From Chloroflexota bacterium (GTDB lineage Bacteria > Chloroflexota > Anaerolineae > Anaerolineales > Villigracilaceae), in the NCBI GenBank assembly GCA_021824575.1, contig JAKAKJ010000092.1:1-32415 (forward strand): a DNA stretch of 32,415 bases, written 5' to 3'. A program made the position numbers and the translations under genes. This document shows positions 3,166 to 25,813 of the stretch, piece by piece (the first letter of the stretch is position 1; each line of letters opens with the position of its first letter). The notes beneath the pieces are model-generated. The model did not search any database, was not told where the DNA came from, and was given only the letters and a program-made list of their open reading frames with translations.

Positions 3166-3243
3166 AAACAATCCATTATGCCTTTCAATAAGACTTTATT
3201 TTTTTAACCAAAGTAATTAGCTCTGGCCAAGCAGTTCACAATT

Positions 3244-4053: not shown

Positions 4054-4089
4054 TGCCTCAATGAAGGTTTTTGAGTGTTTTAGTCGCAC

Positions 4090-4141
4090 ATTATATGAAA
4101 ATCTGAAGAAATTTGCAAGTTTTTGTTTTTTTCATTATAAT
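4090..4141. promoter_or_regulatory. Mirror-symmetric divergent promoter pair sharing one -35 box
   Basis: The palindromic hexamer TTGCAA at 4113-4118 reads the same on both strands. Rightward, after exactly 17 bp, comes TATAAT at 4136-4141. Leftward, after exactly 17 bp, comes TATAAT (4095-4090 on the minus strand). Both arms therefore have a consensus -10 box and share the same -35 box. The left promoter would drive the DeoR and FAD/GcvT genes; the right one would drive the phosphotransferase gene at 4208. Two RNA polymerases could hardly occupy it at once. The AT-rich arms around TATGAAAA and TTTTTCATTA are imperfectly inverted and may include the DeoR operator, but that is a guess. Confidence 0.75.
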
Positions 4142-4207
4142 TATCCGCATTAACCTGCGGACAGAAACCAAAATGATCAGTTCATTTCTCCAAGGATAAA
4201 AACAATC

Positions 4208-5116: not shown

Positions 5117-7541
5117 TTTTCCTACTCAGGCTCAAGTAGTTATCATCGGCGGGGGTGTCGGCGGGTGCAGTATCGCCTACCATCTCACACTGATGGGATG
5201 GAAAGATGTTGTCATTCTTGAGCGGCATGAATTAACCAGTGGTTCGACGTGGCACTCCGCTGGCTTGGTCGGACAGATGCGCACGGATGCGAATCTGACG
5301 CGCATGATGCACTACAGCACAGATTTGTACCGTCGCCTGAAAGATGAAACCGGTCAGGACACATCCTGGCGCGAAGTTGGTGGCGTGCGGCTTGCATCGT
5401 CTGCAGAACGCATGGAGGAGATCAAACGTTTGGTTGGCATGGCGCGTTCCTTCGGCGTTCCGATGGAATTGATCTCGCCGCAGGAAGCGCACAAACTTTT
5501 TCCGCTTATGTCCCTGGATGGCGTAGTCGGCGCGGCATACACACCGAATGATGGAAGCATTGATCCAACCGGCTTGACCAACGCGCTTGCTGTCGGCGCA
5601 AAGAATCGCGGGGCGCGTATCTTTACCAACACCAACGTCGAGAAAATCAATTTGAAAAACGGCCGCGTGGAAGAAGTGGTGACCGACAAGGGTACGATCA
5701 AGACCGAGATTGTTGTCAACGCTTCCGGGTTGTGGGGACGCGAAGTCGGAAAAATGGTCGGCCTGAATCTGCCCGTCGTGCCGATGGCGCATCTTTACAT
5801 CATGACCAAACCCATCGAAGGCGTGACAAAGGATTTCCCAAATTTGCGCGATCCTGATTTGCTGGTTTACTGGCGTGAAGAAGTTGGCGGGCTAGTTACC
5901 GGCGGTTACGAACGGCAGCCCGCTCCATTTGGTTTGAAGGGTGTTCCGCGTGATTTCAAATTCCAGCTGTTGCCGCCCGATTGGGATCGCTTCGCGCCGC
6001 TTATGGAAAACTCCATCAAGCGTGTCCCAGCCATAGAAAATGCGGAAGTCATCAAACTCTTGAACGGTCCCGAAGGTTTTACGCCCGATGGTGAATATTT
6101 GCTCGGTCCAACATCGGTCAAAGGATTTTGGGTCGCTTGCGCGTTCTGCGCGCATGGTCTCGCGGGCGCGGGCGGCATTGGAAAGACAATGGCCGAGTGG
6201 ATCATTGACGGACATCCTGAATGGGATGTTTGGCGACTCGATGTGCGCCGCTTCGGCCCCAATTATGACAGCCTCGATTACACGGTGGCGCGCACGATAG
6301 AAACTTATACACAATATTACGATATCCATTTCCCCGGCGAGGAACGTCTCTCGCGGCGCGGCCAGCGTCTCTCCCCCACATATTATCGCCTGCGCGATCT
6401 TGGTTGTTCGTTCGGTGAAAAGTTTGGATGGGAACGCCCGAACTGGTTCAGGATTTATGAAGAGAAAGCAAATCATGGTCATGAACCAAAAGGCTGGGCG
6501 CGTGAAAATTGGTCGCGTGCCATTGGCTACGAACACCTGATGACGCGCGAGAACGCCGGTCTCTTCGATGAAACTTCATTCAACAAGTTCGAAGTTCGCG
6601 GACCCGGCGCGTTGAAGTTCCTCAATTATGTTTGCGCCAATAATATTGACCAACCTATCGGCTCGATCATTTACACTCAATGTTTGAATAAACGCGGCGG
6701 CATCGAATGTGATTTCACAGTCACGCGTTTGGCCGATGACCGCTTCTTCATCATCACCGGAACCGCGTTCGGGCAGCACGATTCATCATGGCTTTCGCTC
6801 AACATGCCTGATGACGGTTCAGTAACCATCGAAGATGTTGGCTCGGCGTACGCCTGTCTCGGTTTGTGGGGTCCGAAGGCGCGGAAGATTCTTGAAAAAG
6901 TTACCACCGACGATATATCGAACGCGAACTTTCCATATATGACCGCCAAGCGAATCACCGTTGGAGATGTTCCGCTTCTCGCTTCGCGCGTGACATATGT
7001 CGGCGAGCTGGGCTGGGAATTTTACTGCCCAATGGAATATGGCGCCCGCCTGTGGGATACATTATGGGAAGCTGGAACGCCTGAGGGAATGGTTGCGGGC
7101 GGCTACAAAGCAATTGACACAATGCGATTGGAAAAAGGTTACCGTTATTGGAGCAGTGAGATCAGCCCAGACTACACGCCGCTCGAAGCGGGTTTGGGAT
7201 TCGCCGTCAAACTGGATAAAGGCGACTTTCTCGGACGCGAGGCTTTGGTCAAACAAAAAGAAGCGGGCATCAAGCGAAAACTATGTTGCTTAACGCTCGC
7301 CGACGATCGCATGGTTGTGCTAGGCAAGGAACCGATTCGAACCAACGACAAAACCATCGGCTGGATCGCGGCAGGCGGATACGGTTATTCGGTCAAGAAA
7401 AGCATGGCTTATGCTTACCTGCCTATCGAATACACAAAAGTCGGCACGCCATTGGAAGTGGAATTTTTCGGAGAGCAGGTTGGAGCCGTCGTGGTTCAAT
7501 CACCGCTGTGGGACCCAAAAGGAGAACGGGTTAGAGCATAA
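5109..7541 (+). CDS. FAD-dependent dimethylglycine dehydrogenase-like enzyme with GcvT domain
   Basis: This is an 810-residue DMGDH-type enzyme. The dinucleotide fold opens VVIIGGGVGGCSIAYHL (residues 10-26). The covalent-flavin site TSGSTWHSAGL has His49 after Trp48, as in characterised dimethylglycine dehydrogenases. A FAO_M-like region and a GcvT domain (from about residue 420, including ASRVTYVGELGWEFY) plus its C-terminal barrel follow. The expected chemistry is oxidative N-demethylation with transfer of the one-carbon unit to tetrahydrofolate. The ATG at 5109 is preferred over upstream in-frame codons because GGAGG at 5095-5099 lies 9 bases before it and the Rossmann strand starts at once. 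It overlaps the upstream kinase gene by 8 bp. It is paralogous to the enzyme at 736-3165 but keeps the canonical Trp-His pair. A strong hairpin ends the transcript. Confidence 0.9.
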   Translation: MNDFPTQAQVVIIGGGVGGCSIAYHLTLMGWKDVVILERHELTSGSTWHSAGLVGQMRTDANLTRMMHYSTDLYRRLKDETGQDTSWREVGGVRLASSAERMEEIKRLVGMARSFGVPMELISPQEAHKLFPLMSLDGVVGAAYTPNDGSIDPTGLTNALAVGAKNRGARIFTNTNVEKINLKNGRVEEVVTDKGTIKTEIVVNASGLWGREVGKMVGLNLPVVPMAHLYIMTKPIEGVTKDFPNLRDPDLLVYWREEVGGLVTGGYERQPAPFGLKGVPRDFKFQLLPPDWDRFAPLMENSIKRVPAIENAEVIKLLNGPEGFTPDGEYLLGPTSVKGFWVACAFCAHGLAGAGGIGKTMAEWIIDGHPEWDVWRLDVRRFGPNYDSLDYTVARTIETYTQYYDIHFPGEERLSRRGQRLSPTYYRLRDLGCSFGEKFGWERPNWFRIYEEKANHGHEPKGWARENWSRAIGYEHLMTRENAGLFDETSFNKFEVRGPGALKFLNYVCANNIDQPIGSIIYTQCLNKRGGIECDFTVTRLADDRFFIITGTAFGQHDSSWLSLNMPDDGSVTIEDVGSAYACLGLWGPKARKILEKVTTDDISNANFPYMTAKRITVGDVPLLASRVTYVGELGWEFYCPMEYGARLWDTLWEAGTPEGMVAGGYKAIDTMRLEKGYRYWSSEISPDYTPLEAGLGFAVKLDKGDFLGREALVKQKEAGIKRKLCCLTLADDRMVVLGKEPIRTNDKTIGWIAAGGYGYSVKKSMAYAYLPIEYTKVGTPLEVEFFGEQVGAVVVQSPLWDPKGERVRA

Positions 7542-11194: not shown

Positions 11195-11216
11195 AAATCG
11201 TACCCAATGGCGAGTG

Positions 11217-12224
11217 ATGTGTCCTTTGAAGAAAAACCCTACCATTTATGATGTCGCCAAATATTCCGGCACAAGCATTTCAACCATTTCCCGAGTGCTA
11301 AATTCCCCTGATAAGGTTAATGTTGAAACGCGGCGAAAAGTTTCAGCGGCTATCGATGCTCTCGGATTTGTACCCAAGGCTGAGGCTCGTGCTCGCGCAC
11401 TTCGCCTGAACGGGCGAATTGGTGTAATGACCCCCTTTTTTACGGCACCTTCCTTCGTTCAACGTTTACGCGGTATCGCGGGAGGACTGTCCAAGAAGAA
11501 TTACGATTTGGTCATATATACGGTTGACTCAGTGGATCAATTACAGAGTTATCTTTCATCGTTGCCGCTTACGGGAAACTTAGATGGGTTGATCTTGATG
11601 TCGCTACCAATCGAAGACGTTGCTGTGAACCGCTTGCTTAAGCACCATATCCCAACTGTATTGATTGAATTCCCCCACAAAAAATTAAACAGTGTCGAAA
11701 TTGATGATATAGGTGGCGGTCGGATGGCTGCCGAATATCTTGTCGCCAAAGGACATCGCCGAATCGCATTCCTAGGTGATACTGATTTGCCTGAATATTC
11801 TATTCACCCTGTCAGCTTGCGTTTGGTCGGTTTTCGACAAGCCTTGCAGGAAGCAGGGATCACGCTTACCGATGAGTTTGTGCGCTTGGCGCCTTACACA
11901 ATGGAGCAGACTCGTCAGGTGGCAATCGAACTTCTAAGCGCATCGAACCCACCTACTGCGGTTTTTGCCGCCACTGACTTTCAGGCTTTGGGTATGCTAA
12001 AAGTTGCGCGCCATCTTGGAATCAAAGTCCCGGAGCAGTTGGCAGTAATCGGTTTTGATGATCTCGATATGGCAGAGTATGCGGATCTGACCACCGTTCG
12101 TCAACATCTGGACGAATCTGGGCGTCTGGCGATTGAGATTTTACTTTCGCACATAGCGGATAATTCGCGTCCGGTTCAACATATTAACCTTCCCCTGAAC
12201 ATTGTAGAACGCATAACAGCTTAA
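11217..12224 (+). CDS. LacI-family transcriptional repressor of the sugar locus
   Basis: About 335 residues with a LacI-type helix-turn-helix and hinge at the N-terminus (TIYDVAKYSG, ISTISRVLNS, then AIDALGFVPKAEARALR-like hinge). The periplasmic-binding-protein-like sensor domain follows, with the family signatures DIGGGRMAAEYLVAKGHRRI, FAATDFQALGMLKVA and VIGFDDLDMAEYADLTTV. It binds a sugar effector and represses transport and catabolism genes. The ATG at 11217 is used; a GTG immediately before it at 11214 is possible. No strong ribosome site is visible. Its promoter carries the same operator as the promoter of the downstream binding-protein gene, so it very likely represses both. The ligand is probably the sugar handled by the genes at 12716-19299. 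Confidence 0.93.
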   Translation: MCPLKKNPTIYDVAKYSGTSISTISRVLNSPDKVNVETRRKVSAAIDALGFVPKAEARARALRLNGRIGVMTPFFTAPSFVQRLRGIAGGLSKKNYDLVIYTVDSVDQLQSYLSSLPLTGNLDGLILMSLPIEDVAVNRLLKHHIPTVLIEFPHKKLNSVEIDDIGGGRMAAEYLVAKGHRRIAFLGDTDLPEYSIHPVSLRLVGFRQALQEAGITLTDEFVRLAPYTMEQTRQVAIELLSASNPPTAVFAATDFQALGMLKVARHLGIKVPEQLAVIGFDDLDMAEYADLTTVRQHLDESGRLAIEILLSHIADNSRPVQHINLPLNIVERITA

Positions 12225-12404: not shown

Positions 12405-12715
12405 CAAAACACTTTCCATTCATGTGCGAGCGACATAAAATTTGTGTTTTGTAATTCGAATAACGGCTGAATAAAGATGGAAATAACCAATGCTTAGCTT
12501 TCTTTGCATAAACCGAGTTGGAAATGCTTGGATCATGGCTTTCATTGCGAATAACAAAACAAAGCAACCATCAATCACGAAGCATCTGGATAATGCGTCT
12601 GCAATGTATTGAAGGAGGTGGCCTCAAACAGAGAAACTGTTGTTCTACACGCAAGCAACAATCCAAATCTCTCAAAAAGATATTGTCCCACCACGCAAAC
12701 GAAAAGGAGAAGAAC
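12405..12715 (+). other. Long untranslated leader of the binding-protein gene
   Basis: About 310 bases separate the operator from the ATG of the binding-protein gene. A short frame of 41 codons at about 12490-12615 lacks a good ribosome site and has no recognisable product. A GGAGG at 12612-12616 is not followed by a start codon. No known riboswitch fold was recognised by eye. The length leaves room for post-transcriptional control, but nothing specific is seen. Confidence 0.45.
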
Positions 12716-14134
12716 ATGAATAAAATCACGGTGCGATTGCTGGCACTGGCGGTGATAAGTGGCATACTTCTAGGCGCATGCTCACCTGCCACAACTGCCG
12801 CCCCTTCCGAAACACAAGCCCCTGCTCCAACTCAGGCCCCTGCAACCCAGCCTCCCGCTACGGCGGCTGCCACCGTAGCGCCCACACAGGCTGCAACTGC
12901 CTCTGGTCCCAATTGCGGGACCGCGCCGGTAACCCTCAATGCCTACTTTGAAACGGGCTTCGATCTGCCCTTCAAGCTTTCCGACGAGTTCACGAAGGAA
13001 TACCCAAACGTTACCTGGGATATCAAACAAGATCAGTTTGCAAACCTCATCAACGAAACACCGCGCCTCCTCTCTGGTGATAATCCTCCAGATCTCATCA
13101 GACTGCCAACCATGGTATCGTTTGCCAAGCAGGGATTGCTCAAGAACCTTGATGGCTACGCCACTGCTTTTGGCTGGGATAAATGGCCGATGGCACAAAT
13201 CAACCAGAATCGAGTCGCGTCAGACGGCACACGAGGTTCCGGCTCGCTCTACGCATGGGGCCTCAACTATAGCCTGACCGGGGTCTTCTATAACAAAAAG
13301 CTAGCTGCTCAAATCGGGATGACCCAACCGCCAGCAACTCTTGCTGACTTCGATGCTCTGCTTGCGAAGGCCAAAGCGGCTGGGCTCTTGCCGATCATGC
13401 AATGGGGTAGTGCCAAAAGCGGCATGGGACTCGCATTCCCGTTGCAGGCGCTCATGGCGTCCATAGGCCCAACGCAGCCCATCAACGATTGGATTTTCCA
13501 GAAGAAAGGTGCCACGATCGATACCCCTTCGAATCTGACTGCTGCCCAGCATCTCCAACAGTGGATTCAAGCGGGCTACTTTCCACCTGATATCAATGCC
13601 ATCGAGTACACTGACTCTAATGCCCGTTTCGTCAAGGGCGAGGGCGTCTTCACCTTTAATGGCGACTGGGAGAACGCCGATTATGATAAGAACATGGCTG
13701 GCAATGTTGGGTTCTTCCTGATGCCACCTGCAACGGCCGGAGGTGACCCGGCGGCTATGTCTGCTCCGCTAACCTATGGCATCGCAGCCAACGCCAAGAA
13801 TGCGGATTGCGCCGCCTTCTTCCTCAACTGGGTAGCCACAAACCCAACTGCGCGCCAGATCGACGTTACCGTTGGTGGCTCGAATCCAGGCGGACCTTCG
13901 GATGCAACCATGCCGACTGTAACCGCAGGCTCGGTCACAAACGATACGCTGGCTGCTGGAGCTGTGGTCAATAAGGCTGGCACGGCGATGGATTTCATCG
14001 CCAACTCTACAAGCTCCATTTTTGCCCAGGGCTGGACACCCGCGCTCCAGAAGATGGTCGGCGGCAAGGAGGATGCTGCCAGCCTCCTCAAGGATGTTCA
14101 GGCCGAATACCTGCTGGAACTCTCTCAGCAGTAA
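12716..14134 (+). CDS. Sugar ABC transporter substrate-binding lipoprotein
   Basis: A 472-residue protein with a lipoprotein signal: charged MNKITVR, hydrophobic core, lipobox LLGAC with Cys at about residue 21. A Pro/Thr/Ala/Gln-rich tether (about 22-62) follows, typical of anchored binding proteins in monoderm or Chloroflexi cells. The rest is an SBP_bac_1 fold (LSDEFTKEYPNVTWDIK, GDNPPDLIRLP, GVFTFNGDWENADY). It should capture an oligosaccharide or disaccharide outside the membrane and deliver it to the two permeases encoded next. The ATG at 12716 is chosen over upstream in-frame codons because AGGAG lies about 10 bases before it and the signal peptide starts there. It heads an operon under a LacI-type operator. 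Confidence 0.93.
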   Translation: MNKITVRLLALAVISGILLGACSPATTAAPSETQAPAPTQAPATQPPATAAATVAPTQAATASGPNCGTAPVTLNAYFETGFDLPFKLSDEFTKEYPNVTWDIKQDQFANLINETPRLLSGDNPPDLIRLPTMVSFAKQGLLKNLDGYATAFGWDKWPMAQINQNRVASDGTRGSGSLYAWGLNYSLTGVFYNKKLAAQIGMTQPPATLADFDALLAKAKAAGLLPIMQWGSAKSGMGLAFPLQALMASIGPTQPINDWIFQKKGATIDTPSNLTAAQHLQQWIQAGYFPPDINAIEYTDSNARFVKGEGVFTFNGDWENADYDKNMAGNVGFFLMPPATAGGDPAAMSAPLTYGIAANAKNADCAAFFLNWVATNPTARQIDVTVGGSNPGGPSDATMPTVTAGSVTNDTLAAGAVVNKAGTAMDFIANSTSSIFAQGWTPALQKMVGGKEDAASLLKDVQAEYLLELSQQ

Positions 14135-14191
14135 TGGGCTTATGGCCGCGGGATAATTACACTTATCCAGTTGAAGGTAAAATCTAAAGAG

Positions 14192-15121
14192 ATGTCAGAA
14201 AACCGTCCGGCGGCTCTTTCAATCTCCCAGCGAACCTACTTGAGCAAACGGGTCCGCTGGGAGACCATTGGTGGCTGGCTCTTCGTACTGCCTGCGCTGC
14301 TCATGTACACGGTCTTCGTGATCCTGCCTCTCATATTGACCATCCTGTACTCGTTCTATCGCTGGAACGGCATCGGTCCAATGACTTGGGTCGGGTTGAA
14401 AAATTACGCCACCGTCTTCGAGGTACCCGACCTGCTTGGGACGATCTTCAATGCTTTCTGGCTGGTCGTATGGTTTAGCTTTATTCCGGTGGGCTTGGGC
14501 CTTGTTGTTGCGAGCGTAATCCACCGCGTGGCGACGGGGCGCCTAGGAGCAATAGCTCGAACCGTTCTGTTCCTGCCACAAGTCATACCGCTCGTCGCTG
14601 CCGGTATCATCTGGGGCTGGTTGCTGGCTCTGCCGGGCTTAATCAACCAGATTCTCAACGCCGTTGGGCTTGGCGCCTTCACCCGCGCTTGGCTGGGCGA
14701 CTTCGACTTCGCTCTCCCAGCTGTTGGCCTTATCGGGATCTGGGTTCTGTTGGGATTCTGCACTGTCTTGCTGTTGACCGGTATGACAAAGGTTGACCCG
14801 GCTCTTTATGAGTCCGCGAGAATCGATGGCGCTGGCTGGCTCCAGGAGTTCCTAGCAATCACCGTTCCGCTTCTCAGATACGAGATCGGCGTGTGCCTAA
14901 CCGTTACTGTGATTGCCGCGTTGGCGGCATTTGACATCGTCTACGTTTCGACGGCCGGCGGGCCAGGCAACTCGACGTCTGTTCCCGGTATCCAGATCTA
15001 CGTTTTGGCATTCACTCAGCGAGCGGTGGGTTTGGCATCTGCCCTGGCAGTTATGCTCATGGTTCTCGTGGTTTTGGTTATCATCCCGATCCAGTGGCTG
15101 AGCCGGGAGGGTATATCATGA
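14192..15121 (+). CDS. Sugar ABC transporter permease, MalF type
   Basis: This is a 309-residue integral membrane protein of the binding-protein-dependent permease family, with six predicted helices. The first is FVLPALLMYTVFVILPLI, and then comes the typical 'YSFYRWNGIGPMTWVGLKNY' segment. The EAA loop that contacts the ATPase is YESARIDGAGWLQEF (about residues 208-222), with the conserved Gly. A TTG at 14171 is in frame, but the ATG at 14192 (MSENRPAAL) with AAAGAG just before it is more likely. The stop overlaps the next start as ATGA. The sugar passed is set by the binding protein; no ATPase gene is in the cluster. Confidence 0.92.
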   Translation: MSENRPAALSISQRTYLSKRVRWETIGGWLFVLPALLMYTVFVILPLILTILYSFYRWNGIGPMTWVGLKNYATVFEVPDLLGTIFNAFWLVVWFSFIPVGLGLVVASVIHRVATGRLGAIARTVLFLPQVIPLVAAGIIWGWLLALPGLINQILNAVGLGAFTRAWLGDFDFALPAVGLIGIWVLLGFCTVLLLTGMTKVDPALYESARIDGAGWLQEFLAITVPLLRYEIGVCLTVTVIAALAAFDIVYVSTAGGPGNSTSVPGIQIYVLAFTQRAVGLASALAVMLMVLVVLVIIPIQWLSREGIS

Positions 15122-15942
15122 GGGTTGCTCGCGGCGAGCTCTGGGCAGGCCGGGCACTTCTTCTCGTCTTGATGACGATCACGATACTGCCCTTCATCAG
15201 CATCTTCACAACGGCGCTGCATCCGTCGGGGACTGTGCCCAACGGGCTCGACTGGCCCGTAAACCCGCAGTGGGGCAACTTCGTCCAAGCATTCAAGGTT
15301 GCAGATATGCCTACCCTCCTGCTCTCGAGCACATACATTGTCCTGGCTGTCGTGCCCATATCCCTGATTATCTCCACAATGGCCGGCTTTGCCATCGGGC
15401 TCCTCCGCGTCCCTGGTGCGAGCGCACTCCTCTTTCTATTCGTGTTTGGGCTGACACTCCCGTTCCCGGGAATCATCATCCCCATCTATATCTTAGAGCG
15501 AGGGATGCACATCTACAATACGAGACTTGCGATCGTACTGCCGCTGATCGCTTTGTATATGCCCTTCGCCGTTTTCTGGATGCGCGCTCACTTCGTCAAT
15601 ATGCCAACCGAAATCTCGGATGCAGCCCGCGTCGATGGCGCGAGCACATGGGATCTGTTCTGGCGCATCCACGTTCCGCTCGCGCGTGCTCCAATCACAT
15701 CGCTCGGGATCCTTATGTCTGTGTGGACGTGGAACCAGTTTCTCCTTCCGCTGGTGGTTGTAGAAGATCCATCACAGCGAACCATGGCCGGCGCGCTGGG
15801 AGCGTTCCAAGGACACTACGCGACCGATATCCCGTTGCTATGCGCCGGCACGCTACTGCTCCTAGTGCCGACCCTAGTGGTCTTTATCCTGTTCCAGCGC
15901 CAGATCATCGCAGCGCTGCTCCAGGGTGCAGTAAAAGGATAA
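15118..15942 (+). CDS. Sugar ABC transporter permease, MalG type
   Basis: A 274-residue permease with the compact MalG layout. The N-terminal helix and a periplasmic loop (SIFTTALHPSGTVPNGLDWP) are followed by the core helices. The EAA loop is SDAARVDGASTWDLFWRIHV (about residues 165-184). The ATG at 15118 overlaps the preceding stop by four bases and is served by GGGAGG at 15105-15110, so the pair is translationally coupled and probably forms the heterodimeric channel. No nucleotide-binding subunit follows; a shared MsiK-type ATPase encoded elsewhere would be needed. Confidence 0.92.
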   Translation: MRVARGELWAGRALLLVLMTITILPFISIFTTALHPSGTVPNGLDWPVNPQWGNFVQAFKVADMPTLLLSSTYIVLAVVPISLIISTMAGFAIGLLRVPGASALLFLFVFGLTLPFPGIIIPIYILERGMHIYNTRLAIVLPLIALYMPFAVFWMRAHFVNMPTEISDAARVDGASTWDLFWRIHVPLARAPITSLGILMSVWTWNQFLLPLVVVEDPSQRTMAGALGAFQGHYATDIPLLCAGTLLLLVPTLVVFILFQRQIIAALLQGAVKG

Positions 15943-16080: not shown

Positions 16081-17055
16081 ATGCCACTTATTTTCGATCT
16101 TCCATTCGAGCAGTTAGAAAGTTATCAGGGTAGAAATCCGCGCCCACAGGACTTTGATGCTTTCTGGGAAAAAGGCCTCGCGGAAATGCGGGCAACCGAT
16201 CCACAAGTTGAATTAGTTCCCGCCGAGTTTAAAGCAACGAACACAGCATGTTTTCACCTTTATTTTACCGGCATGGGAGGGGAACGTATCCACGCGAAGC
16301 TGTTGCAGCCCGTGAAATTTTCTCCCCCTCATCCAGCCATCCTGATGTTCCATGGTTACACAGGTGATTCCGGTGATTGGTCCGATAAGCTCAGTTACGT
16401 TTCGGAAGGGTTCACCGTAGCGGCATTGGATTGCCGAGGGCAGGCAGGTTTGTCGGAGGACAGAGGCGGCGTAAGCGGAAACACACTCCACGGGCACATC
16501 ATTCGTGGATTGGATGATGCTCTGAACGATTTGCCGGAAAAGTTGCTTTTCCGGCAAATATTTCTTGATACCGCCCAACTTGCCAGGATTGTTATGGGAA
16601 TGCCCGACGTTGATGCAAATCGGGTAGGCGCAACAGGCAGCAGTCAGGGAGGCGCGTTGACCGTTGCCTGCTCCGCATTGGAGCCTCGCATCAAGCGCGC
16701 AGCTCCAGTATTTCCATTCCTCAGCGATTACAAGCGGGTTTGGGAAATGGATCAGGCAAAAGATGCCTACCTGGAACTGCAGGAATTCTTCCGCCATTCA
16801 GACCCTACGCATAAACTTGAGGATCGTATCTTCGAGAAGTTGGGTTACATCGATATTCAATTTCTGGCTCCCCGCATCCGGGCAGAAGTGTTATGGGGAA
16901 TTGGATTAATGGACACCGTCTGCCCACCTTCAACCCAATTTGCCGTATATAACAAAATTGTTTCGGCCAAGGGAATGACGGTATATCCGGATTTCGAACA
17001 CGAAACTTTGCCGGGTCATAGTGATCGGGTTTTTCAATTCATGATGGGGTTGTAG
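16081..17055 (+). CDS. CE7-family acetyl esterase (acetyl xylan esterase / cephalosporin C deacetylase)
   Basis: A 324-residue alpha/beta hydrolase that matches the length and layout of carbohydrate esterase family 7. The opening PxDFDAFWEKGLAE is characteristic. The family RGQ motif is at residues 119-121 (DCRGQAG). The nucleophile Ser188 sits in GSSQGG, the acid is probably Asp278 (GLMDTVCPP), and the base is His307 (DFEHE). Tyr93 in HGYTG fits the oxyanion hole. There is no signal peptide, so it acts in the cytoplasm, as usual for CE7, on acetylated oligosaccharides that have been imported. It lies 138 bp after the MalG-type permease gene on the same strand, which suggests that the transported sugar may carry acetyl groups. 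The precise substrate is unknown. Confidence 0.9.
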   Translation: MPLIFDLPFEQLESYQGRNPRPQDFDAFWEKGLAEMRATDPQVELVPAEFKATNTACFHLYFTGMGGERIHAKLLQPVKFSPPHPAILMFHGYTGDSGDWSDKLSYVSEGFTVAALDCRGQAGLSEDRGGVSGNTLHGHIIRGLDDALNDLPEKLLFRQIFLDTAQLARIVMGMPDVDANRVGATGSSQGGALTVACSALEPRIKRAAPVFPFLSDYKRVWEMDQAKDAYLELQEFFRHSDPTHKLEDRIFEKLGYIDIQFLAPRIRAEVLWGIGLMDTVCPPSTQFAVYNKIVSAKGMTVYPDFEHETLPGHSDRVFQFMMGL

Positions 17056-17166
17056 ATGATCCCGGTTTCAATTACACCATACCCAAGGAAGCAACTCAGA
17101 AAACGTGGATGCTGACGGCTACATTTTTGAAAAAGAGTTTGTCTGTGCGGGACTAAAGAGGTCATT

Positions 17167-17820
17167 ATGAAAGGCGATATCCTTGTTCTACAAGAATATC
17201 ACACACGGGTCGCAAGTGAGATTGTTCCTCAAATCATTGACAGTATCAGACAGAAAAACACAAGATACATAATCACAGTCGCAGGAGAATCTGGCAGCGG
17301 CAAGTCTGAAACTGGCGAGGCTATTGCAGACGAATTGGAAAAATGCGGAATCAAATCTTTCGTGCTGGGACAGGATGATTACTTTGTTCTTCCTCCCAAA
17401 CAGAATGACCGAAAGAGGCGAGAAGATCCAGAATGGCTCGGGCCGCATGTAGAAGTCAAACTGGATGTGATGGAACAAAATCTGGTGAGCGCCATCCAGG
17501 GGAAAAGAGAAATAACCAAACCACTGGTTGACTATGATTCAAGTACTATTGAGGAAGAGACCATAAATTTGGATGGAATTAAGGTTCTGATTGCGGAAGG
17601 AACATATACGTCTCTGCTCAAACATGTTGATACCAGGATTTTCATCGCTAGAAACTGGCGGGACACGCTGGAACATCGCCAGATAAGAAAGCGCGGTAAT
17701 GAAGTAGGTGACCCATTTATCGAGCAGGTGCTAAGCATGGAACATAAGATTATTGCCGGCCATAAGCAATTGGCAGATTTCCTGATAACGAAAGATTATG
17801 AAGTGCTGGTCGTTGCATAG
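17167..17820 (+). CDS. Uridine-kinase-like P-loop kinase, substrate unknown
   Basis: A 217-residue cytoplasmic P-loop kinase of the uridine kinase/phosphoribulokinase/glycerate kinase superfamily. Walker A is GESGSGKS (residues 40-47). The segment LGQDDYFVLPPKQND resembles the acceptor-substrate Asp-Asp-Tyr/Phe motif of uridine kinases. VLIAEGTYTSLL corresponds to the 'vEG' strand, and RQIRKRGNEVGDP forms a lid-like basic segment. It is shorter and divergent from true Udk. The gene is 9 bp upstream of the GH13_18 phosphorylase, and both starts share the same AGGTCATTATGA context, so the two are co-expressed. A sugar, fructosyl or glycerate acceptor seems more likely than uridine, by context only. 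Confidence 0.78.
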   Translation: MKGDILVLQEYHTRVASEIVPQIIDSIRQKNTRYIITVAGESGSGKSETGEAIADELEKCGIKSFVLGQDDYFVLPPKQNDRKRREDPEWLGPHVEVKLDVMEQNLVSAIQGKREITKPLVDYDSSTIEEETINLDGIKVLIAEGTYTSLLKHVDTRIFIARNWRDTLEHRQIRKRGNEVGDPFIEQVLSMEHKIIAGHKQLADFLITKDYEVLVVA

Positions 17821-17829
17821 CAGGTCATT

Positions 17830-19299
17830 ATGACGGTCAAGAATCAAGTTCAGCTGATAACGTATCCAAATTCGATGGGCGGAAATCTAAGAACACTCAA
17901 TTACATTTTGGAAACTTATTTTCCTGGTCTTTTTAAGGGCGGGATCCATATACTGCCGCCTTTTCCTTCTTCGGGTGACCGGGGTTTTGCGCCCCTGACC
18001 TATCTGGAAATCGCACCGGAATTCGGCAGTTGGGAAGATATCAAACAAATCAGCGAACAGCACCCGATCTTGCTTGATTTAATGGTTAATCACATCTCTG
18101 CAAAGTCAATCTATTTTCAGGATTTTCTCGAAATGGGGCGCGAGTCTGAGTATGCGGATCTATTCATTCCCGTGGATAAGATTTGGTCAAATGGCGATCC
18201 TCTGCGGGAGGATATAGAAAAAATATTCCTGCGCCGGACAGAGCCATTTTCCGACTTCACGATCAGGAAAACAGGCGAAGTGGAGAGGGTTTGGACGACA
18301 TTTGGGAAAACCACTCCATCCGAACAGGTTGATATAGATGTGAATTCAAAGATTGCTCGTCACCTGCTGACTGAATTCATGACCAAATTTAGCAAAAACG
18401 GAATCAAGATCGTGCGGTTGGATGCAGTGGGGTACGTGATTAAAAAGCCGGGAACGACATGTTTCTTTGTAGAGCCTGAAATTTATCAATTTCTGGAGTG
18501 GTTATCGGAACTAGCCAATTCACTTGGGATCGAGCTGTTGCCCGAAGTTCATGCAGATTACTCAACCCAATTCAAATTGGCCGAAAAAGGATATTGGATC
18601 TATGACTTTATCCTGCCTTATACAGTTCTTGATGCATTGTTGAATGGAACCAGTAAAAGGCTGAAAGAGTATCTGAAAACCAGACCACATCGGCAATTTA
18701 CCATGCTCGATTGTCACGATGGGGTGCCGATCAAACCGGATTTGAATGGCTTTTACAGAACCGAAGATGCCCGCAAGTTGGTTGACATTTGTCTAAATAG
18801 AGGTGCGAATCTCAGCCCAATATTTTCCTCAAAGCATAAGGACCCGGATGGCTTCGATGTGCATCAAATCCGCGGCACATTCTATTCCCTGCTGGATTGC
18901 AATGATGATGCATACATCGCTGCCAGGGCTATTCAGTTCTTCACACCCGGCGTTCCGCAAGTTTATTATGTTGGGCTGCTGGCGGGAAAAAACGATCAAG
19001 TCGAGGCGGAAAGGACGGGGGATGGCCGCGATATCAATCGTCACAATTATTCAACGCCTGAGACAGAAAAGGCGCTTCAACTTCCAGTTGTCCAGCGTCT
19101 GATGAAACTGATCCGATTCCGGAATGAATTTGATGCCTTCGATGGAGAATTTCAAGTTCAAGACTCGGATGATCGGCTCTTGAAATTATCCTGGGAAAAT
19201 AAACAAAAAAGGTGTCAGCTAATGATAGACCTCCACAGCTACAAGGCCGTTATTCAATACACAAATGATGTTGGAAGTCTGGTAGATTATCCCCTGTGA
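17830..19299 (+). CDS. GH13_18 phosphorylase, probably sucrose 6F-phosphate phosphorylase
   Basis: A 489-residue protein of the usual length for sucrose phosphorylases, with no signal peptide. It starts VQLITYPNSMGGN, as in this family. Catalytic residues visible are the nucleophile Asp198 (VRLDAVGY), the acid/base Glu239 (LLPEVHAD) and the stabiliser Asp297 (LDCHDGVP). Late motifs are AARAIQFFTPGVPQVYYVG and GRDINRHNY. It carries SSGDRGFAPLTY and FLRRTEPF, and His345 in GFDVHQI where sucrose phosphorylases usually have Tyr. Arg135 and His345 match, from memory, the residues that bind fructose 6-phosphate in the Thermoanaerobacterium enzyme. The reaction would be sucrose 6F-phosphate plus Pi to glucose 1-phosphate and fructose 6-phosphate. 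Ordinary sucrose, glucosylglycerol or glucosylglycerate phosphorylase remains possible. It is the last gene of the sugar locus. Confidence 0.85.
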   Translation: MTVKNQVQLITYPNSMGGNLRTLNYILETYFPGLFKGGIHILPPFPSSGDRGFAPLTYLEIAPEFGSWEDIKQISEQHPILLDLMVNHISAKSIYFQDFLEMGRESEYADLFIPVDKIWSNGDPLREDIEKIFLRRTEPFSDFTIRKTGEVERVWTTFGKTTPSEQVDIDVNSKIARHLLTEFMTKFSKNGIKIVRLDAVGYVIKKPGTTCFFVEPEIYQFLEWLSELANSLGIELLPEVHADYSTQFKLAEKGYWIYDFILPYTVLDALLNGTSKRLKEYLKTRPHRQFTMLDCHDGVPIKPDLNGFYRTEDARKLVDICLNRGANLSPIFSSKHKDPDGFDVHQIRGTFYSLLDCNDDAYIAARAIQFFTPGVPQVYYVGLLAGKNDQVEAERTGDGRDINRHNYSTPETEKALQLPVVQRLMKLIRFRNEFDAFDGEFQVQDSDDRLLKLSWENKQKRCQLMIDLHSYKAVIQYTNDVGSLVDYPL

Positions 19300-20269: not shown

Positions 20270-22960
20270 TCACTGTAAAGCCTTCACCAGCAAATCGACA
20301 TCTTCCACCTTGGAAAGATGAACGCGGATCACGCGTCGACCGCGCACAACCAGTGTCTCATAATCGCCGAGCGCTTGCGCGCGGATCAACGTTCCATACG
20401 TCATCCCTTCGTTTGGAATTTGCATATCCTTGTCAACATCTGAAATGATTTGAATGAACAGTCCCGTGTTCGGCCCGCCTTTGTGGAATTGTCCCGTCGA
20501 ATGCTGGAAGCGCGGACCAAAGCCAGCCGTCACCGCGCATTTGGTCTTCTCGCGGATGGCAACGCGCATTCTTTGCAATTCATCCACCATTCCGCGTGTG
20601 CGCGGCAAATACGCGTTGATGGCAACATAATCGCCAGCTTTGGCTTGTTTCAAAAATTCAGCCAGCGCGGGCTTTGCCTCTTTCAACTCAACCGATTTTC
20701 CTTCGTTCAATTTTCCGCTCGATTTATATTCGGCGATCTTGGCTTTCGTGCGATCCTTGCTGTCCTGCACATCGGGCTGGTCGAACGCGTTGACGCCGAT
20801 GATGTGGCACGCAACCGCCGTCGCAATTTCCCAGCGATAAAACTCCGCCGCCGCGTCATACGGATCAGCAATCGGAAACTCGATCACAGGATGACCAACC
20901 GCACGCAACGCGGCCACGCCATTTTCAAGTTCGCCATTTTGTTTCAGATAAACAAGGATGCGGTCATGACCATAAACTTCAGGATGATCCAGCGGCTCCA
21001 ACGGGACCGGCAGGATTCCTTTGCCGTTCTTCCCACTTGACTCGGCAATGATCTGTTCGATCCAGCTCGCCAACGCAGACAGAGGCGCATCAGCCAGGAT
21101 CGTCAACTTGTCGCGGCCCGCCAAAGCGGATTCGCCCAGGACGGCTCCCAGCGCCAAACCGGGATTGCGCGCCGCTGGAATATTTTTTGTGCATTGACGT
21201 TTCATCCAATCCGCGCAGTCGAGGAAATGATTCAAATCCACGCCAAGCAATGAAGCGGGAACCATGCCAAAGTCGGTCAACGCGGAATAGCGCCCGCCGA
21301 CGGTTGCATCGGATGAAAAGGTTTTTCGGAAGCCGCGTTCACGCGCCAGTTGTTCAAGCGATGTACCAGGATCAGTGATGGCAATAAAGCGCGAACCATT
21401 GCCTTTGCTGAGTTTCCAGAAATAATCGAAATTGGCTGAGACTTCCGCGGTGCCGCCAGACTTGCTGGAGACAATGTAAAGACTCTTATCAGGCGGATAA
21501 TCTTCCGCGGCTTTGGCAACCTGCGCGGGATCAGTCGAATCCAGGATAGCCAGACAGGATGGCGCGTCAATTTTTGCATCGGCGAGTAATGAGCTGATGA
21601 CTTCCGCTGTCAGCGACGAGCCGCCCATGCCCATAACCAAGATGCGGCCAATTCCTTCTTTGCGAATTTCATCCGCAAGAGATTCATAAGCAGGGATCAA
21701 TTCGCGGGCTTTATCAGGCGAGTCCATCCAGCCCATGCGGATGGTGACTTCATTTTGTCCGGCAGGATCGGTCGTCCATAACGTGGGATCATGCGACCAC
21801 AGACGCGCGGGAACGGAATCCGCTTCGAGCTTGGACATCCGCTCGGAAACGGAGTCCGCCAACGGTCCGAGAGAAGAGACGGCGTTCTTTCGTCTTTCAT
21901 CAATCGTTTTCAACAACGCGGTGATCGCGTCCGCAAAAGCCTTGACGCCTTCCTCTTCCAATTCCTGCGTGACCTGATCCATCGAAATTCCCGCGGCTTC
22001 GAGTTGGGCAATTTCAGCGTGCGCCTTGTCAACATCTTTGTTGATTGTGACCTCGGCCCTGCCATGATCCTTGACGGCTTCGAGCGTTTGCGGCGGAACC
22101 GTGTTGACGGTATGCGGGCCGACGAGATTATCAACATAGATCGTGTCGGGATAGGCAGGATTCTTCGTGCTGGTCGAAGCCCACAGCGGACGCTGAAGCC
22201 GCGCGCCGCGCGCCTTTAGTTTTTCCCAGCGTTCGCCCTGAAATGTTTTCTCAAATTGTTCATAAGCGAGCCTGGCATTGGCAACCGCAGCCTTGCCGCG
22301 CAATGGCGAACCTTCGGGAAGTTTTGCATCAACTTTTGTATCCACACGCGAAACAAAAAACGACGCAACCGAGGCGATGTGACTGATTGGATGACCGGCC
22401 GCGAGGCGATCCTCGAGTCCGCTGAGATATGCTTCCATGACTTCAAGATAACGCGCAATCGAAAAGATCAGCGTGATGTTGACATTGATGCCCGCGGCAG
22501 TCGCGCGTCGAATCGCGGGGATGCCAGCTTTCGTCGCCGGAATCTTGACCATCAGATTCGGTTTGGCAACGCGTGCCCAAAGCTGCTGAGCCTGCGCGCA
22601 AGTTGCTTCGGTGTCGTTGGCGAGATATGGGCTGACTTCAATGCTCACATAACCATCGCCGCCGTTCGATTCTTCATAAAGCGGCGAGAGTTGACGGCAG
22701 GCTTCTTTGATATCTTCGACAACCAATTCCCAAAAGATTTTTTCCGCATCCCATCCGGCCCATGCCAGCGGAGTCAACGCTTCATCATAATCATGCGAAT
22801 TGGCAATGGCGTGGTTGAAGATACTCGGATTGGATGTCACACCGCGGATGTCGCCGCGTTCGATCATGGCTTTGAATTCGCCATTTTCCAACAATTTGCG
22901 CTGGATGTTATCGTACCAAATGGATTGACCCAGTTGAGTAAGTTTAGTAATCGGATTCAT
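20270..22960 (-). CDS. tal-pgi: Bifunctional transaldolase / glucose-6-phosphate isomerase
   Basis: An 896-residue fusion. Residues 1-365 form a transaldolase: [12 protein letters not shown] near residue 41, the Schiff-base Lys139 in [11 protein letters not shown], and [11 protein letters not shown]. Residues from about 385 to 896 form a glucose-6-phosphate isomerase: [11 protein letters not shown] and [14 protein letters not shown] for phosphate binding, and an extended C-terminal SIS half. The fusion links glycolysis (glucose 6-P to fructose 6-P) with the non-oxidative pentose phosphate pathway in one cytoplasmic protein. This architecture is known in several bacterial lineages. ATG 22960 has CGGAG 6 bases upstream. 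It follows rpiB and tkt in the same operon; its leader is built from the 8-bp repeat described separately. Confidence 0.95.
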
Positions 22961-22977
22961 ATGTACTCCGTTTTAAA

Positions 22978-23063
22978 GTTCGAAGGTTGGAGAGTTTGCA
23001 AGTTAACCGGCGAACATTCAAACCTTCCAACATTCCAACATATTAGCCTTCCAACTTTCCAAC
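22978..23063. repeat. 8-bp-period repeat with inverted halves at the rpiB/tal-pgi junction
   Basis: On the plus strand GTT recurs exactly every 8 bases (22978, 22986, 22994, 23002). From the central GTTAAC, AAC then recurs every 8 bases (23013, 23021, 23029, 23037, then after one degenerate unit 23053 and 23061). Units read like GTTcGAAG in the first half and AACcTTCC in the second, so the halves are inverted and could pair. The repeat extends through the rpiB stop and encodes its last residues (KLEDVGKLEG). Confidence 0.8.
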
Positions 23064-23513
23064 ATCTTCAAGTTTATGAATTTTCGCAACCCGTCTGGCA
23101 AGTCTCTCGCCGCCGGGATCATTTCCTTCATAGCGCGCGTTCAAAAACGCAGAGACGAGACTCTTTGCAAGTTCGGGGCCAACGACGCGCCCGCCGAGGC
23201 ATAACACATTCATTTCGTCGTGCATCACACCTTGCGCGGCGGAATACGTATCGTGACAAATCGAAGCGTACACGCCTTTCATCTTGTTTGCCGCAATGCA
23301 CGCGCCGATGCCCGAACCGCAGACCAAAATTCCACGTTCGGCCTCGCCCGTTTGAATCGCGCGTCCAACTTTCTCGCTGTAATCCGGGTAATCCACGCTC
23401 GCGGACGAATAGGTGCCAAGATCAATCGGTTCGTGTCCCGCGGTGCGCACGGCATCGAGAACAACTTCTTTCAGCGGAAAACCTGCATGGTCAAAACCAA
23501 CAGCAACCTTCAT
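23043..23513 (-). CDS. rpiB: Ribose-5-phosphate isomerase B
   Basis: This is a 156-residue RpiB/LacA/LacB-family isomerase. It has the opening MKVAVGFDHAGFPLK with Asp8 and His9, and the active-site Cys65 in LVCGSGIGACIAANK. His98 lies in GVMHDEMNVLCLGG. It interconverts ribose 5-phosphate and ribulose 5-phosphate in the cytoplasm. GAGG lies 4 bases before the ATG, and the previous stop is 6 bases upstream, so it is coupled to the small membrane protein gene. The last ten residues (VGKLEG end) are encoded by the 8-bp repeat, so the C-terminal tail is probably not functional. Confidence 0.95.
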   Translation of the reverse strand: MKVAVGFDHAGFPLKEVVLDAVRTAGHEPIDLGTYSSASVDYPDYSEKVGRAIQTGEAERGILVCGSGIGACIAANKMKGVYASICHDTYSAAQGVMHDEMNVLCLGGRVVGPELAKSLVSAFLNARYEGNDPGGERLARRVAKIHKLEDVGKLEG

Positions 23514-23519
23514 TCAGCC

Positions 23520-23735
23520 TCATCGTCCAAGCAAACTTGTGCCGCCAAAACGCAAAGCGCCAAGCACAATCAATACAAAGCCAATCGCGATATAAACCAC
23601 GCGCGCAACGGCTTCGCCCGCCAAACGATTGAACAACTTTCCGGGCCGCATGATGATGCTCCAATTCAATGCAGCCCCGAGTATGCAGAGAAGGCCGGCG
23701 GCGATCAACGCGCTTCCAACAATGGCATTGTTCAT
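23520..23735 (-). CDS. Small two-helix membrane protein (resembles Imm17-type family)
   Basis: This is a 71-residue protein with two membrane helices: [19 protein letters not shown] near the N-terminus and [15 protein letters not shown] near the end. Between them lies a conserved-looking basic hinge ([18 protein letters not shown]). The pattern is like the small Imm17-type two-helix proteins, which also occur outside toxin loci. Its ATG overlaps the tkt stop by four bases (ATGA), and it ends 6 bases before rpiB, so it is firmly inside the operon. A toxin partner is absent. Its role is unknown. Confidence 0.75.
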
Positions 23736-25720
23736 GAATCTAAAATCTCATGTGCTTTAGCGACGACATTCTCAACCGTAAAGCCCAAATGTTCGAAGAT
23801 GGTCTTGTACGGAGCGGACGCGCCAAAGCGGTCAATGCCGATGACTTTTCCATCGAGACCGACGTATCGCTCCCAGCCGAGGCTGGCCGCCGCTTCGACG
23901 GCGAGTCTGCGTTTGACGCGGCGCGGCAGGACGGACTCTTTGTAAGCCTCGTCCTGTTGCTCAAAAAGTTCCCACGATGGGAACGAAACCACGCGCACGC
24001 TGTATTCTTCTTCAGCGAGTTTCTTCGCCGCTTCATAGATCAAACTGACTTCTGAACCGGACGCCATCAAAATGATATCCGGCTTTTTCTTTCCAAATGA
24101 AGCCAGCACATACGCGCCTTTCTCAACGGTTGGAAGGTTTGAAGGTTCGAAGGTTGGAACGGCTTGACGCGTCAACGCCAGCACAGTCGGGCCGCGGCGG
24201 TTGGCGATGGCAAACTTCCAGGCTTGTGCGACTTCGTTTGCATCGGCAGGACGGATCACGGTCAGGTGTGGAACCGCGCGCAGCGCCGCCAGATGTTCAA
24301 TCGGCTGGTGTGTCGGGCCGTCTTCGCCGAGACCGACACTGTCATGAGTAAAAACAAAGATCGAAGGAATGCGCGCAAGAGCCGCGATGCGGATGGCGGG
24401 TTTCATGTAATCCGAGAAGATCAGGAACGTGCCGCCGTACGGAATCACTCCGCCGTGCAGCGTCATGCCATTGAGAGCCGCGCCCATGGCGTGTTCGCGC
24501 ACGCCAAAATGGAAATAGCGCGCCGAGCGATTATCTTTTTCAAAATCGCCTGCACCATCGAACTTCGTGTTGTTCGACGGCGTCAAATCTGCGGAGCCGC
24601 CAATCAATTCCGGGATGACATTTGCAAGCGCGGTCAACACTTTTCCAGATGAGGCGCGCGTTGCCATGCCTTTTGGATCCGCCGGAAAAGCCGGCAGAGC
24701 CGCTTCCCAACCCTGAGGCAGTTCACCTTTCAGACGCCGCTCCAATTCCGCACCGAGATCGGGATGTTCCTTTTTATAAGCATCGAACCTGCCCTGCCAC
24801 TCGCTTTCATATTTTTGCCCGCGCCCAACACTCTCGCGATAAAACGCGAGCACATCTTCGGGGATATAAAAACGCGGTTCCAGCGGCCAGCCGAGGTTTT
24901 GTTTTGCGGCATTAAGTTCATCATCGCCAAGCGGCTCGCCATGCACTTTGGCCGTATCCTGTTTATGCGGCGCGCCGAATCCGATGTGCGTGCGGCAAAG
25001 GATGAGCGACGGCTGTTGATGGATTTTCGCAGACTGAATGGCGGCGTCCACTGCATCAACGTCGTTGCCGTCCTCCACTTTTTGGACGAACCAGCCGTAC
25101 GCCGCGAAGCGCGCCGCGCGGTCTTCGGTGAAAGCCAAATCGGTGGAACCGTCAATCGAAATGTGGTTGTTATCGTACAGATAGATCAAATGAGGCAGCT
25201 GCAAATGCCCCGCCAGCGACGCGGCTTCGGACGACACACCCTCCATCAAATCGCCGTCGGTGACAATTCCATAGATGTAATAATCGAACAAATCGGGAGA
25301 AAATTCCGCGGCGAGATGTGCGCGTGCAATCGCCATGCCGACGCCCGTCGCAAATCCCTGACCGAGCGGACCGGTCGTTGTTTCGACTCCGGGTGTCAGT
25401 CCATATTCGGGATGACCCGGCGTTTTGCTTTCCCATTGGCGAAAATTCTTGATCTCATCGAGCGACAGATCGTAACCGGTCAGATGCAGAAGCGAATACA
25501 ACAACATCGAGCCGTGACCGCCCGACAAAATGAATCGGTCGCGTCCGGGCCACTTCGGGTTGTGCGGGTTGTGGCGCAGATGACGCGTCCATAGGGTGTA
25601 GGCCATTGCGGCCGCGCCCATTGGAAGTCCGGGATGACCCGAATTGGCTTGTTGAACGGCATCCGCCGAAAGGAATCGAATTGTATTGATTGCGCGTGTT
25701 GTCAGATCGTCAGTGGTCAT
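23732..25720 (-). CDS. tkt: Transketolase
   Basis: This is a 662-residue full-length transketolase. It has substrate-side motifs [13 protein letters not shown] and [18 protein letters not shown], and a TPP/Mg site ([20 protein letters not shown]). The pyrimidine-domain signature is [20 protein letters not shown], with REHAMGA carrying the catalytic Glu. The C-terminal domain follows. It transfers two-carbon ketol units in the pentose phosphate pathway. The ATG at 25720 follows GAGGAGA; an in-frame TTG at 25732 overlaps that ribosome site. It heads the operon of six leftward genes. A 32-bp run of the 8-bp repeat (24128-24159) lies inside the coding sequence, encoding part of a probable surface loop ([15 protein letters not shown]). 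Confidence 0.96.
24128..24159. repeat. Four tandem 8-bp units GGTTNGAA inside tkt
   Basis: GGTTGGAA, GGTTTGAA, GGTTCGAA and GGTTGGAA follow without gaps. This matches the units near 22978-23063. The frame of tkt is kept because the neighbouring sequence makes up a multiple of three; the encoded residues fall between the pyrimidine and C-terminal domains. Confidence 0.85.
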
Positions 25721-25813
25721 ATCTCTCCTCAATGATTATTTTACCACTCGCAAAATTCCATAACCTCGACGCTGTCAAGTATAATTTTCTGACCCAATCC
25801 AAATAAAGAGGCG

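Follow-up and report, generated by a model that had tools for sequence, protein, structure and literature searches.

A free-standing P-loop kinase upstream of sucrose 6F-phosphate phosphorylases: a proposed ATP:sucrose 6F-kinase in a Chloroflexota operon

How does a bacterium that imports its sugar unphosphorylated supply an enzyme that is predicted to prefer sucrose 6F-phosphate? A review of the GH13_18 family gives the source of this compound as the phosphotransferase system (PTS) or as currently unknown (PMC7178133; published work is cited here from excerpts of the papers). The question is raised by contig JAKAKJ010000092.1 of a Chloroflexota bacterium in the Villigracilaceae, a stretch of 32,415 nucleotides called the window below, from a genome (G000) of 3.64 Mb that is rated 98% complete. 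An operon-like run, all on the + strand, encodes a LacI-family regulator, an ABC sugar-binding lipoprotein (SBP), two permeases, a CE7 esterase, a P-loop kinase and a GH13_18 phosphorylase. Open reading frames (ORFs) and family matches confirm the CE7 esterase, uridine-kinase-like kinase and GH13_18 phosphorylase that an earlier reading of this DNA (the original prediction) had placed after an ABC importer, and the ORF coordinates put the kinase 9 bp upstream of the phosphorylase, as it had said; the gap between esterase and kinase is 111 bp. We think it probable that this is a sucrose or sucrose-ester catabolic operon in which an ATP-dependent sucrose 6F-kinase would feed a sucrose 6F-phosphate phosphorylase (SPP).

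In the proposed scheme the ABC importer would bring in an unphosphorylated sucrose-type sugar, and a cytosolic CE7 esterase would take off any acyl (probably acetyl) groups that it carries. Next, the 217-aa kinase would transfer the gamma-phosphate of ATP to O6 of the fructosyl unit. The SPP would convert the resulting sucrose 6F-phosphate with inorganic phosphate to glucose 1-phosphate and fructose 6-phosphate for entry into glycolysis. We infer the substrate of the kinase and the position that it phosphorylates, the esterase substrate and the order of the steps from sequence and context. The kinase step costs one ATP, as much as a plain sucrose phosphorylase followed by fructokinase. The ATP saving that had been foreseen is real only in comparison with hydrolysis plus two hexose kinases; against phosphorylase plus fructokinase there is none.

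The phosphorylase gene (17830..19299, +; 489 aa) matches the NCBIfam sucrose phosphorylase model TIGR03852 with 482 bits. Its best PDB match is the SPP of Thermoanaerobacterium thermosaccharolyticum (TtSPP; 6s9v, 716 bits), followed by a named sucrose phosphorylase (458 bits), and a glucosylglycerol phosphorylase scores 410 bits. Pairwise alignment with TtSPP gives 63% identity and an identical acceptor site. The +1-subsite residues R135, R196, Y202, H345, Q346 and R400 correspond to Arg134, Arg195, Tyr201, His344, Gln345 and Arg399 of TtSPP, and the catalytic triad D198/E239/D297 is identical, so that nine of nine site residues are kept in all; the roles of the fructose 6-phosphate subsite and of the catalytic residues in TtSPP have been described (PMC6720575, PMC7178133). 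Arg135 and His345 thus stand where a fructose-6-phosphate-type site had been foreseen. Loop A (residues 341-346 of the window enzyme) reads GFDVHQ, the TtSPP signature, and does not fit the N(L/V)D(I/L/V)YQ motif of plain sucrose phosphorylases (PMC7178133). Glucosylglycerate phosphorylases have Glu in loop A where the others have Gln (PMC6720575), and the window enzyme has Gln346 there; glucosylglycerol phosphorylases carry a VGA motif there (PMC6720575), as in 7xdq, against GFDVHQ in the window. The 716-bit match, the kept acceptor and catalytic residues and the loop signature all support an SPP-type enzyme. From its sequence the window phosphorylase is most likely an SPP of the TtSPP type, with a predicted preference for sucrose 6F-phosphate, although the promiscuity of TtSPP (see below) means that sequence gives no proof of strict specificity. 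In T. thermosaccharolyticum the published operon includes a PTS together with a gene for a putative phosphofructokinase (PMC6521584, PMC7178133), in contrast to the ABC importer and P-loop kinase of the window.

The kinase (17167..17820, +) is a free-standing, single-domain protein. One scan with a three-row kinase profile, taking one genome per species across 84,980 species, returned 155 relatives; the analysis continued with the best 80. A GH13_18 gene lies directly downstream of the kinase in 45 of these 80, with an estimated gap of -1 to 246 bp (median 14), and the linkage is beyond chance. At locus L022 the GH13_18 gene is on the other strand, about 3.4 kb from the kinase. The original prediction had named homologous kinases without GH13_18 linkage as a finding that would tell against it; the linkage is there, although 34 of the 80, mostly more distant kinases, have no GH13_18 gene in the sequence stretch examined. 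Among those 34, some contigs stop soon after the kinase, and 19 have an ORF of a ~700-aa family in the place of the GH13_18 gene. A Gemmatirosa kinase (L005), with no GH13_18 gene within 20.5 kb, was excluded from the second tree. In a 99-row tree, 47 GH13_18-linked kinases and one other (L011) form one clade (SH-aLRT 100), with the linked kinase L073 outside; 44 of the 45 linked kinases of the best-80 set fall in a single clade, L073 again being the exception. L011 has 1.7 kb of downstream sequence, without a GH13_18 gene. The linkage label changes 3 times on the tree against 33.3 times when shuffled, and none of 500 shuffles was as low. The A3 alignment includes several contig-cut fragments and one row with a wrong start (L067). 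By their record titles, members of the clade in the first tree come from Chloroflexi, Bacillota, Actinomycetota, Bacteroidota, Chlorobiota/Ignavibacteriota, KSB1, Spirochaetota and a deltaproteobacterium; most are metagenome-assembled genomes, so that isolated oddities of placement could come from misbinning.

The same association appears from the side of the phosphorylase. The window enzyme was searched for in 301 genomes of the same phylum (7 places) and 391 clostridial-class genomes (24 places), with about 1.5 kb of upstream sequence in view except at L092 (35 bp) and L124 (386 bp). A kinase-like gene of 20-35% identity lies just upstream of all 11 enzymes with a YYQ-type loop A (L115 reads MY..YQ), and the P-loop kinase just upstream of three of the five with GFDVHQ. 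None was found beside the three variants AVDIHQ, VDVHQ or APNVHQ, the plain sucrose phosphorylase motif (0/7), RYQ (0/2) or the glucosylglycerate type (0/3). Pooled, a kinase accompanies 14 of 19 fructose 6-phosphate-type sites and 0 of 12 other GH13_18 enzymes (Fisher p 9e-5). Leaving out L092 and L124 gives 0/10 others and p 2e-4, and removing the window itself gives 13/18 and p 2.5e-4, with relatedness ignored in all three tests.

The order of the steps can be argued from the partners of the kinase. In Chloroflexota, Bacteroidota and further groups the partners are of the TtSPP type, 53-78% identical to the window SPP. Acidimicrobiales, Ilumatobacter among them, instead pair kinases 68-72% identical to that of the window with enzymes of the type of the Ilumatobacter coccineus SPP (IcSPP), which share 71-82% identity with the L017 enzyme and 30-33% with the window enzyme. 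One of them, in genome G709, matches IcSPP (6s9u) with 1173 bits over 510 residues; the L017 protein, 77% identical to it, scores 914 bits, and on this difference we take the G709 protein to be the crystallised enzyme. A kinase 69% identical to that of the window is directly upstream of it, whereas the phosphorylase itself is only ~32% identical to the window's and has another acceptor-site solution. Both IcSPP and RgSPP, the SPP of Ruminococcus gnavus, are reported to be strictly specific for sucrose 6F-phosphate (PMC7178133). A kinase in front of IcSPP must therefore act before cleavage. This is the strongest argument for the order, and from sequence comparison we are fairly confident that the kinase would act first and phosphorolysis follow. 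We noticed no mention of the upstream kinase in the excerpts of the IcSPP structure paper (PMC6720575).

What kind of kinase is it? The Pfam match to PF00485 (PRK) is weak, at 30.5 bits, and the scores against the NCBIfam uridine kinase (Udk) models TIGR00235 (51.5 bits, cut-off 220.3) and NF004018 (51 bits, cut-off 180) are far below the cut-offs. A true Udk, scoring 261 bits, is present elsewhere in the source genome. Uridine kinase identity was rejected on these grounds, and the description of a kinase of unassigned acceptor beside the phosphorylase holds. An AlphaFold (AF2) model from a 48-sequence alignment (pLDDT 93.7) predicts the pantothenate kinase/uridine kinase/phosphoribulokinase (PanK/URK/PRK) fold that Udk also has, with Z 19.2 and 3.0 A over 208 residues against 5xlv and Z 18.8 and 2.4 A over 176 residues against 1rz3. 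The fold is common to kinases of many acceptors and so gives no hint on the substrate.

A relative with a described substrate is found in gut bacteria. In a plasmid search, the C-end of an annotated alpha-galactosidase of Agathobacter rectalis was recovered as a relative of the window kinase (E 4e-4). There an ABC importer is followed by the kinase-ending gene, which overlaps a sucrose phosphorylase gene, a locus of the published Rgaga1 kind. R. gnavus E1 has AgaSK (GH36 plus a sucrose kinase (SK) domain), RgSPP and an ABC importer (PMC6521584, PMC7688924), Clostridium sp. L2-50 has the kinase and the alpha-galactosidase as separate genes, and the R. gnavus SK domain phosphorylates sucrose with a Km of 1.0 mM and a kcat of 2.4 per s (PMC7688924). 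Tauzin et al. proposed the import of sucrose 6F-phosphate and noted that the SPP goes with a kinase gene (PMC6521584). The statement in the original prediction that no established pathway was known is thus too strong. Rgaga1 and its gut relatives share with the window an ABC importer, a sucrose kinase domain and an SPP in a row, but the window kinase shares only 26-29% identity with the A. rectalis domain and lacks the GH36 alpha-galactosidase fusion, the phosphorylase belongs to the TtSPP type where theirs is of the YYQ type, and the place of their alpha-galactosidase is taken by an esterase. A profile of the SPP-linked kinases matches SK domains with E 2e-29 over 214 columns, against 2e-14 over 171 columns for nine true Udks, and hhalign of the window-type kinase with SK domains (E 5e-30 over 215 columns) indicates full-length similarity. 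A clostridial free-standing kinase (L113; 267 aa), 2 bp before its SPP gene, has an amino-terminal M-x-GD...H stretch in common with the SK domains.

The import route is consistent with an unphosphorylated cargo. The SBP (12716..14134, +) has weak NCBIfam sugar-SBP matches and none in a Pfam scan; its start is likely the Met before the LLGACS lipobox rather than the TTG at 12518. Permease genes follow at 14171..15121 and 15094..15942 (both +, PF00528), with orthologs at 69-81% and 73-82% identity, respectively. SBP orthologs, 69-80% identical, occur in ten loci that also have an SPP or SPP-like gene, and the loci with similar operons are mostly labelled Chloroflexi/Anaerolineae. In front lies the LacI-family gene (11214..12224, +; PF00356/PF13377), probably the local operon regulator; relatives of 60-76% identity are upstream of the same genes in loci L006, L007, L031-L033, L042 and L052. 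Neither the PTS EIIC domain nor the EI N-terminal domain was detected in the source genome, while each was detected in 7 of 14 control genomes, and we therefore rejected a PTS route to sucrose 6F-phosphate for this genome. Other kinase-SPP pairs have either the window-type ABC importer, a different one (SBP2), or a sodium-solute symporter (SSF), a TonB receptor or both of these. We know of no importer of the ABC, SSF or TonB type that phosphorylates its cargo. With a binding protein, two permeases and no PTS components found, both the importer and the delivery of unphosphorylated sugar claimed for it are supported.

Several observations weigh against a sucrose 6F-kinase feeding the SPP. TtSPP is promiscuous, with high activity on plain sucrose too (PMC7178133), so for an enzyme of its type a kinase is not strictly required. 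In two clostridial-sample genomes (G607 and G400) the position directly before a GFDVHQ SPP is taken by a PfkB-family kinase (L128:5882-6850 and L129:6803-7765), which may be a fructokinase or may fill the same role without being related; a genome of the same sample with an APNVHQ SPP has no kinase. In G195 and G278 the LacI regulator and the importer come with a beta-lactamase-fold hydrolase and with an SPP-like gene that keeps Arg135 and His345, but there is no kinase. A kinase profile search of these two genomes (93% and 90% complete) gave P-loop fragments as best matches, with E 1.4e-3 or worse. Here either the phosphorylase works on sucrose or another kinase serves, and strict kinase-SPP coupling is not upheld. 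PTS EI absence is no general rule either, as the domain is present in three of seven kinase-SPP genomes checked. A third tree, of 44 rows with Udk (18, 12, 8 and 6 chosen rows), does not recover the 18 linked kinases as one clade, three of them grouping with weak support with the sister kinases described below, although their monophyly is not rejected (p-AU 0.487). The branch of the SK domains is too long to place in trees. A large tree with Udk nests them inside the SPP-linked clade on a branch of length 6.9, whereas the best 44-row tree unites SPP-linked and sister kinases without SK (support 74/74), a clade of SPP-linked kinases and SK being not rejected (p-AU 0.44). Finally, the AgaSK product is given as sucrose phosphorylated at glucose C6 (PMC7688924), an isomer that an SPP is not expected to use.

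The promiscuity of TtSPP, the PfkB genes in the two GFDVHQ loci and the two genomes with an SPP-like gene and no such kinase would suit a phosphorylase that acts on plain sucrose, with the kinase serving as a fructokinase for the released fructose. We consider this unlikely, since the same kinase stands beside the strictly specific IcSPP, plain sucrose phosphorylases, which release fructose, have no kinase within 1.5 kb upstream (0/7), the related SK domain phosphorylates sucrose (PMC7688924), and eight loci have ROK-family genes, a possible source of hexose kinase, next to the kinase. Loci L010, L018, L019, L024 and L026 have in addition a second kinase-like gene (~211 aa, 27-28% identical) upstream of the ROK gene and the SPP-linked kinase. 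The AgaSK regiochemistry, together with a fold shared by kinases of many acceptors, would instead fit a kinase that phosphorylates the glucose unit of sucrose or another acceptor (nucleoside or glycerate), its adjacency to the SPP being regulatory or historical. This we regard as improbable to a greater degree still. Such a product would not feed the SPP, yet the kinase lies directly upstream of a GH13_18 gene in 45 of the 80 relatives, and the Udk cut-offs are missed in a genome that has a true Udk. RgSPP, from the same locus as AgaSK, needs the fructose-side isomer (PMC7178133), and pairing of kinase and SPP across phyla makes fructose-side phosphorylation the simpler expectation.

The esterase is less tightly bound to this scheme. 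Its gene (16081..17055, +; 324 aa) matches PF05448 (AXE1) with 405 bits (cut-off 21) and PDB 6fkx with 422 bits, and contains RGQ, GSSQG and HE stretches, which we take to be the CE7 motifs. The protein starts MPLIFDLPFE, with no signal peptide evident by eye, and is thus probably cytosolic. Twelve loci share the window importer and are not cut off inside the SPP, and 11 of these have a CE7 esterase or a beta-lactamase-fold hydrolase. CE7 is found in the window and, at 70-75% identity, in L007, L031, L032, L033, L039, L042 and L052. A beta-lactamase-fold serine hydrolase lies between permease and kinase or SPP in L046 (which we treat as one contig with L095 and L003; L095:7316-8521, PF00144, 251 bits), L093 (9978-11132, -) and L094 (4790-5935). 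L041, also with the window-type importer, has neither. L028 and L029, which share the importer and end inside the SPP, were left out; the part examined has no CE7 or such hydrolase. Among the other kinase loci CE7 occurs once, on the opposite strand (L009). The exchange of one hydrolase fold for another in the same operon argues for a common ester-removing step. Gene order counts the other way. CE7 is downstream of the SPP in the seven other loci and upstream of the kinase in the window, and the closest kinase/SPP pair (L006; 82% and 78%) goes with another importer and shows no CE7 in the sequence in view, which suggests that kinase and SPP are one module and esterase and importer another. CE7 enzymes are mostly described on xylan fragments, as PDB names also have it, and of the 46 loci that have both kinase and GH13_18, 38 show no CE7 in the often short sequence in view. 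An esterase unrelated to the kinase and phosphorylase, handling some other imported sugar such as xylo-oligosaccharides, is accordingly a real possibility, though we put it a little short of even in view of the 11 loci out of 12. From these gene associations, the chances that the esterase acts on the same sugar as kinase and SPP appear roughly balanced. Deacetylation as the first step, as originally predicted, is plausible, and its basis is gene association nearly confined to one importer lineage. Six kinase-SPP loci have a GH1 beta-glucosidase; a common theme of stripping decorated sucrose by GH1, alpha-galactosidase or esterase would be a guess.

Beyond the SPP-linked clade lie sister kinases, whose profile also matches SK (1.7e-22) better than Udk (1.2e-15). 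In 19 loci such kinases, 49-57% identical to that of the window, are followed by a protein of ~700 aa where complete (L068:10645-12723; L048, L053-L056, L058, L059, L061, L062, L064-L067, L070-L072, L075 and L077); at L048 it takes the place of the SPP behind an SSF symporter and the kinase. Five members gave no Pfam match, four gave no NCBIfam match apart from a single one at E 0.11, and the one tried gave no PDB-sequence match. An AlphaFold model (pLDDT 82) has a GH13 fold, closest to the maltosyltransferase 1gju (Z 24.4, 4.1 A, 491 residues) and GlgE (Z ~21.7), and the protein is possibly a new phosphorylase or hydrolase. Directly after other sister kinases, in 5 of 10 downstream ORFs scanned, comes a GT4 glycosyltransferase, like the sucrose-phosphate synthase domain (TIGR02472) or like MshA, below the cut-offs (L069:847-2112, L074:10188-11609, L078:10660-11907, L081:10638-11912 and L084:10666-12087). 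Such neighbours, and the reversibility of phosphorolysis (PMC6521584), would accord with a synthetic direction in which the kinase makes fructose 6-phosphate and the SPP makes sucrose 6F-phosphate as a compatible solute. This is highly improbable in our view, because a LacI regulator and an importer head the window operon, which also includes an esterase.

Elsewhere in the window, downstream and convergent (20270-25732, -), are genes for a transketolase and for a fusion of transaldolase with phosphoglucose isomerase. These enzymes could take up fructose 6-phosphate; their proximity may be coincidental. At 736-7541, a DeoR regulator and a choline-kinase-like gene are flanked by two FAD-oxidoreductase/aminomethyltransferase-type proteins, which share one domain architecture and are encoded on opposite strands.

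The pairing of kinase and SPP is already known from gut bacteria, as AgaSK/RgSPP and as a separate kinase gene in one gut Clostridium. As far as our searches show, the multi-phylum clade of free-standing kinases, its presence beside both kinds of SPP and the association with esterases are new, as are the sister kinases that adjoin either an unclassified protein with a GH13 fold or a sucrose-phosphate-synthase-like GT4. The literature searched contained no report of such a multi-phylum family, which is no proof of absence; excerpts of PMC10112845 and PMC8950772 added nothing on free-standing kinases, and no kinase step was noticed in those of a paper on Anaerolineae and sucrose phosphorylase. 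More broadly, and tentatively, since we rate it somewhat below an even chance, a widespread and so far unrecognised family of soluble sucrose 6F-kinases may feed phosphorylases in bacteria that take up sucrose without a PTS, in contradiction to the glucose-side assignment of AgaSK. Swappable accessories would strip the sugar first, in gut Clostridia an alpha-galactosidase and in Chloroflexota a GH1 beta-glucosidase or esterases, and the sister kinases would serve a GH13-fold enzyme, maybe a new phosphorylase of another phosphorylated glucoside. If the proposal is true, the kinase upstream of both kinds of SPP, with importers of the ABC, SSF or TonB type, would be the missing source of sucrose 6F-phosphate, and the regiochemistry of sucrose kinases would become directly testable. 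It would also help annotators to recognise a kinase for which uridine kinases are the closest curated models, and it would point the way to a new GH13-fold enzyme.

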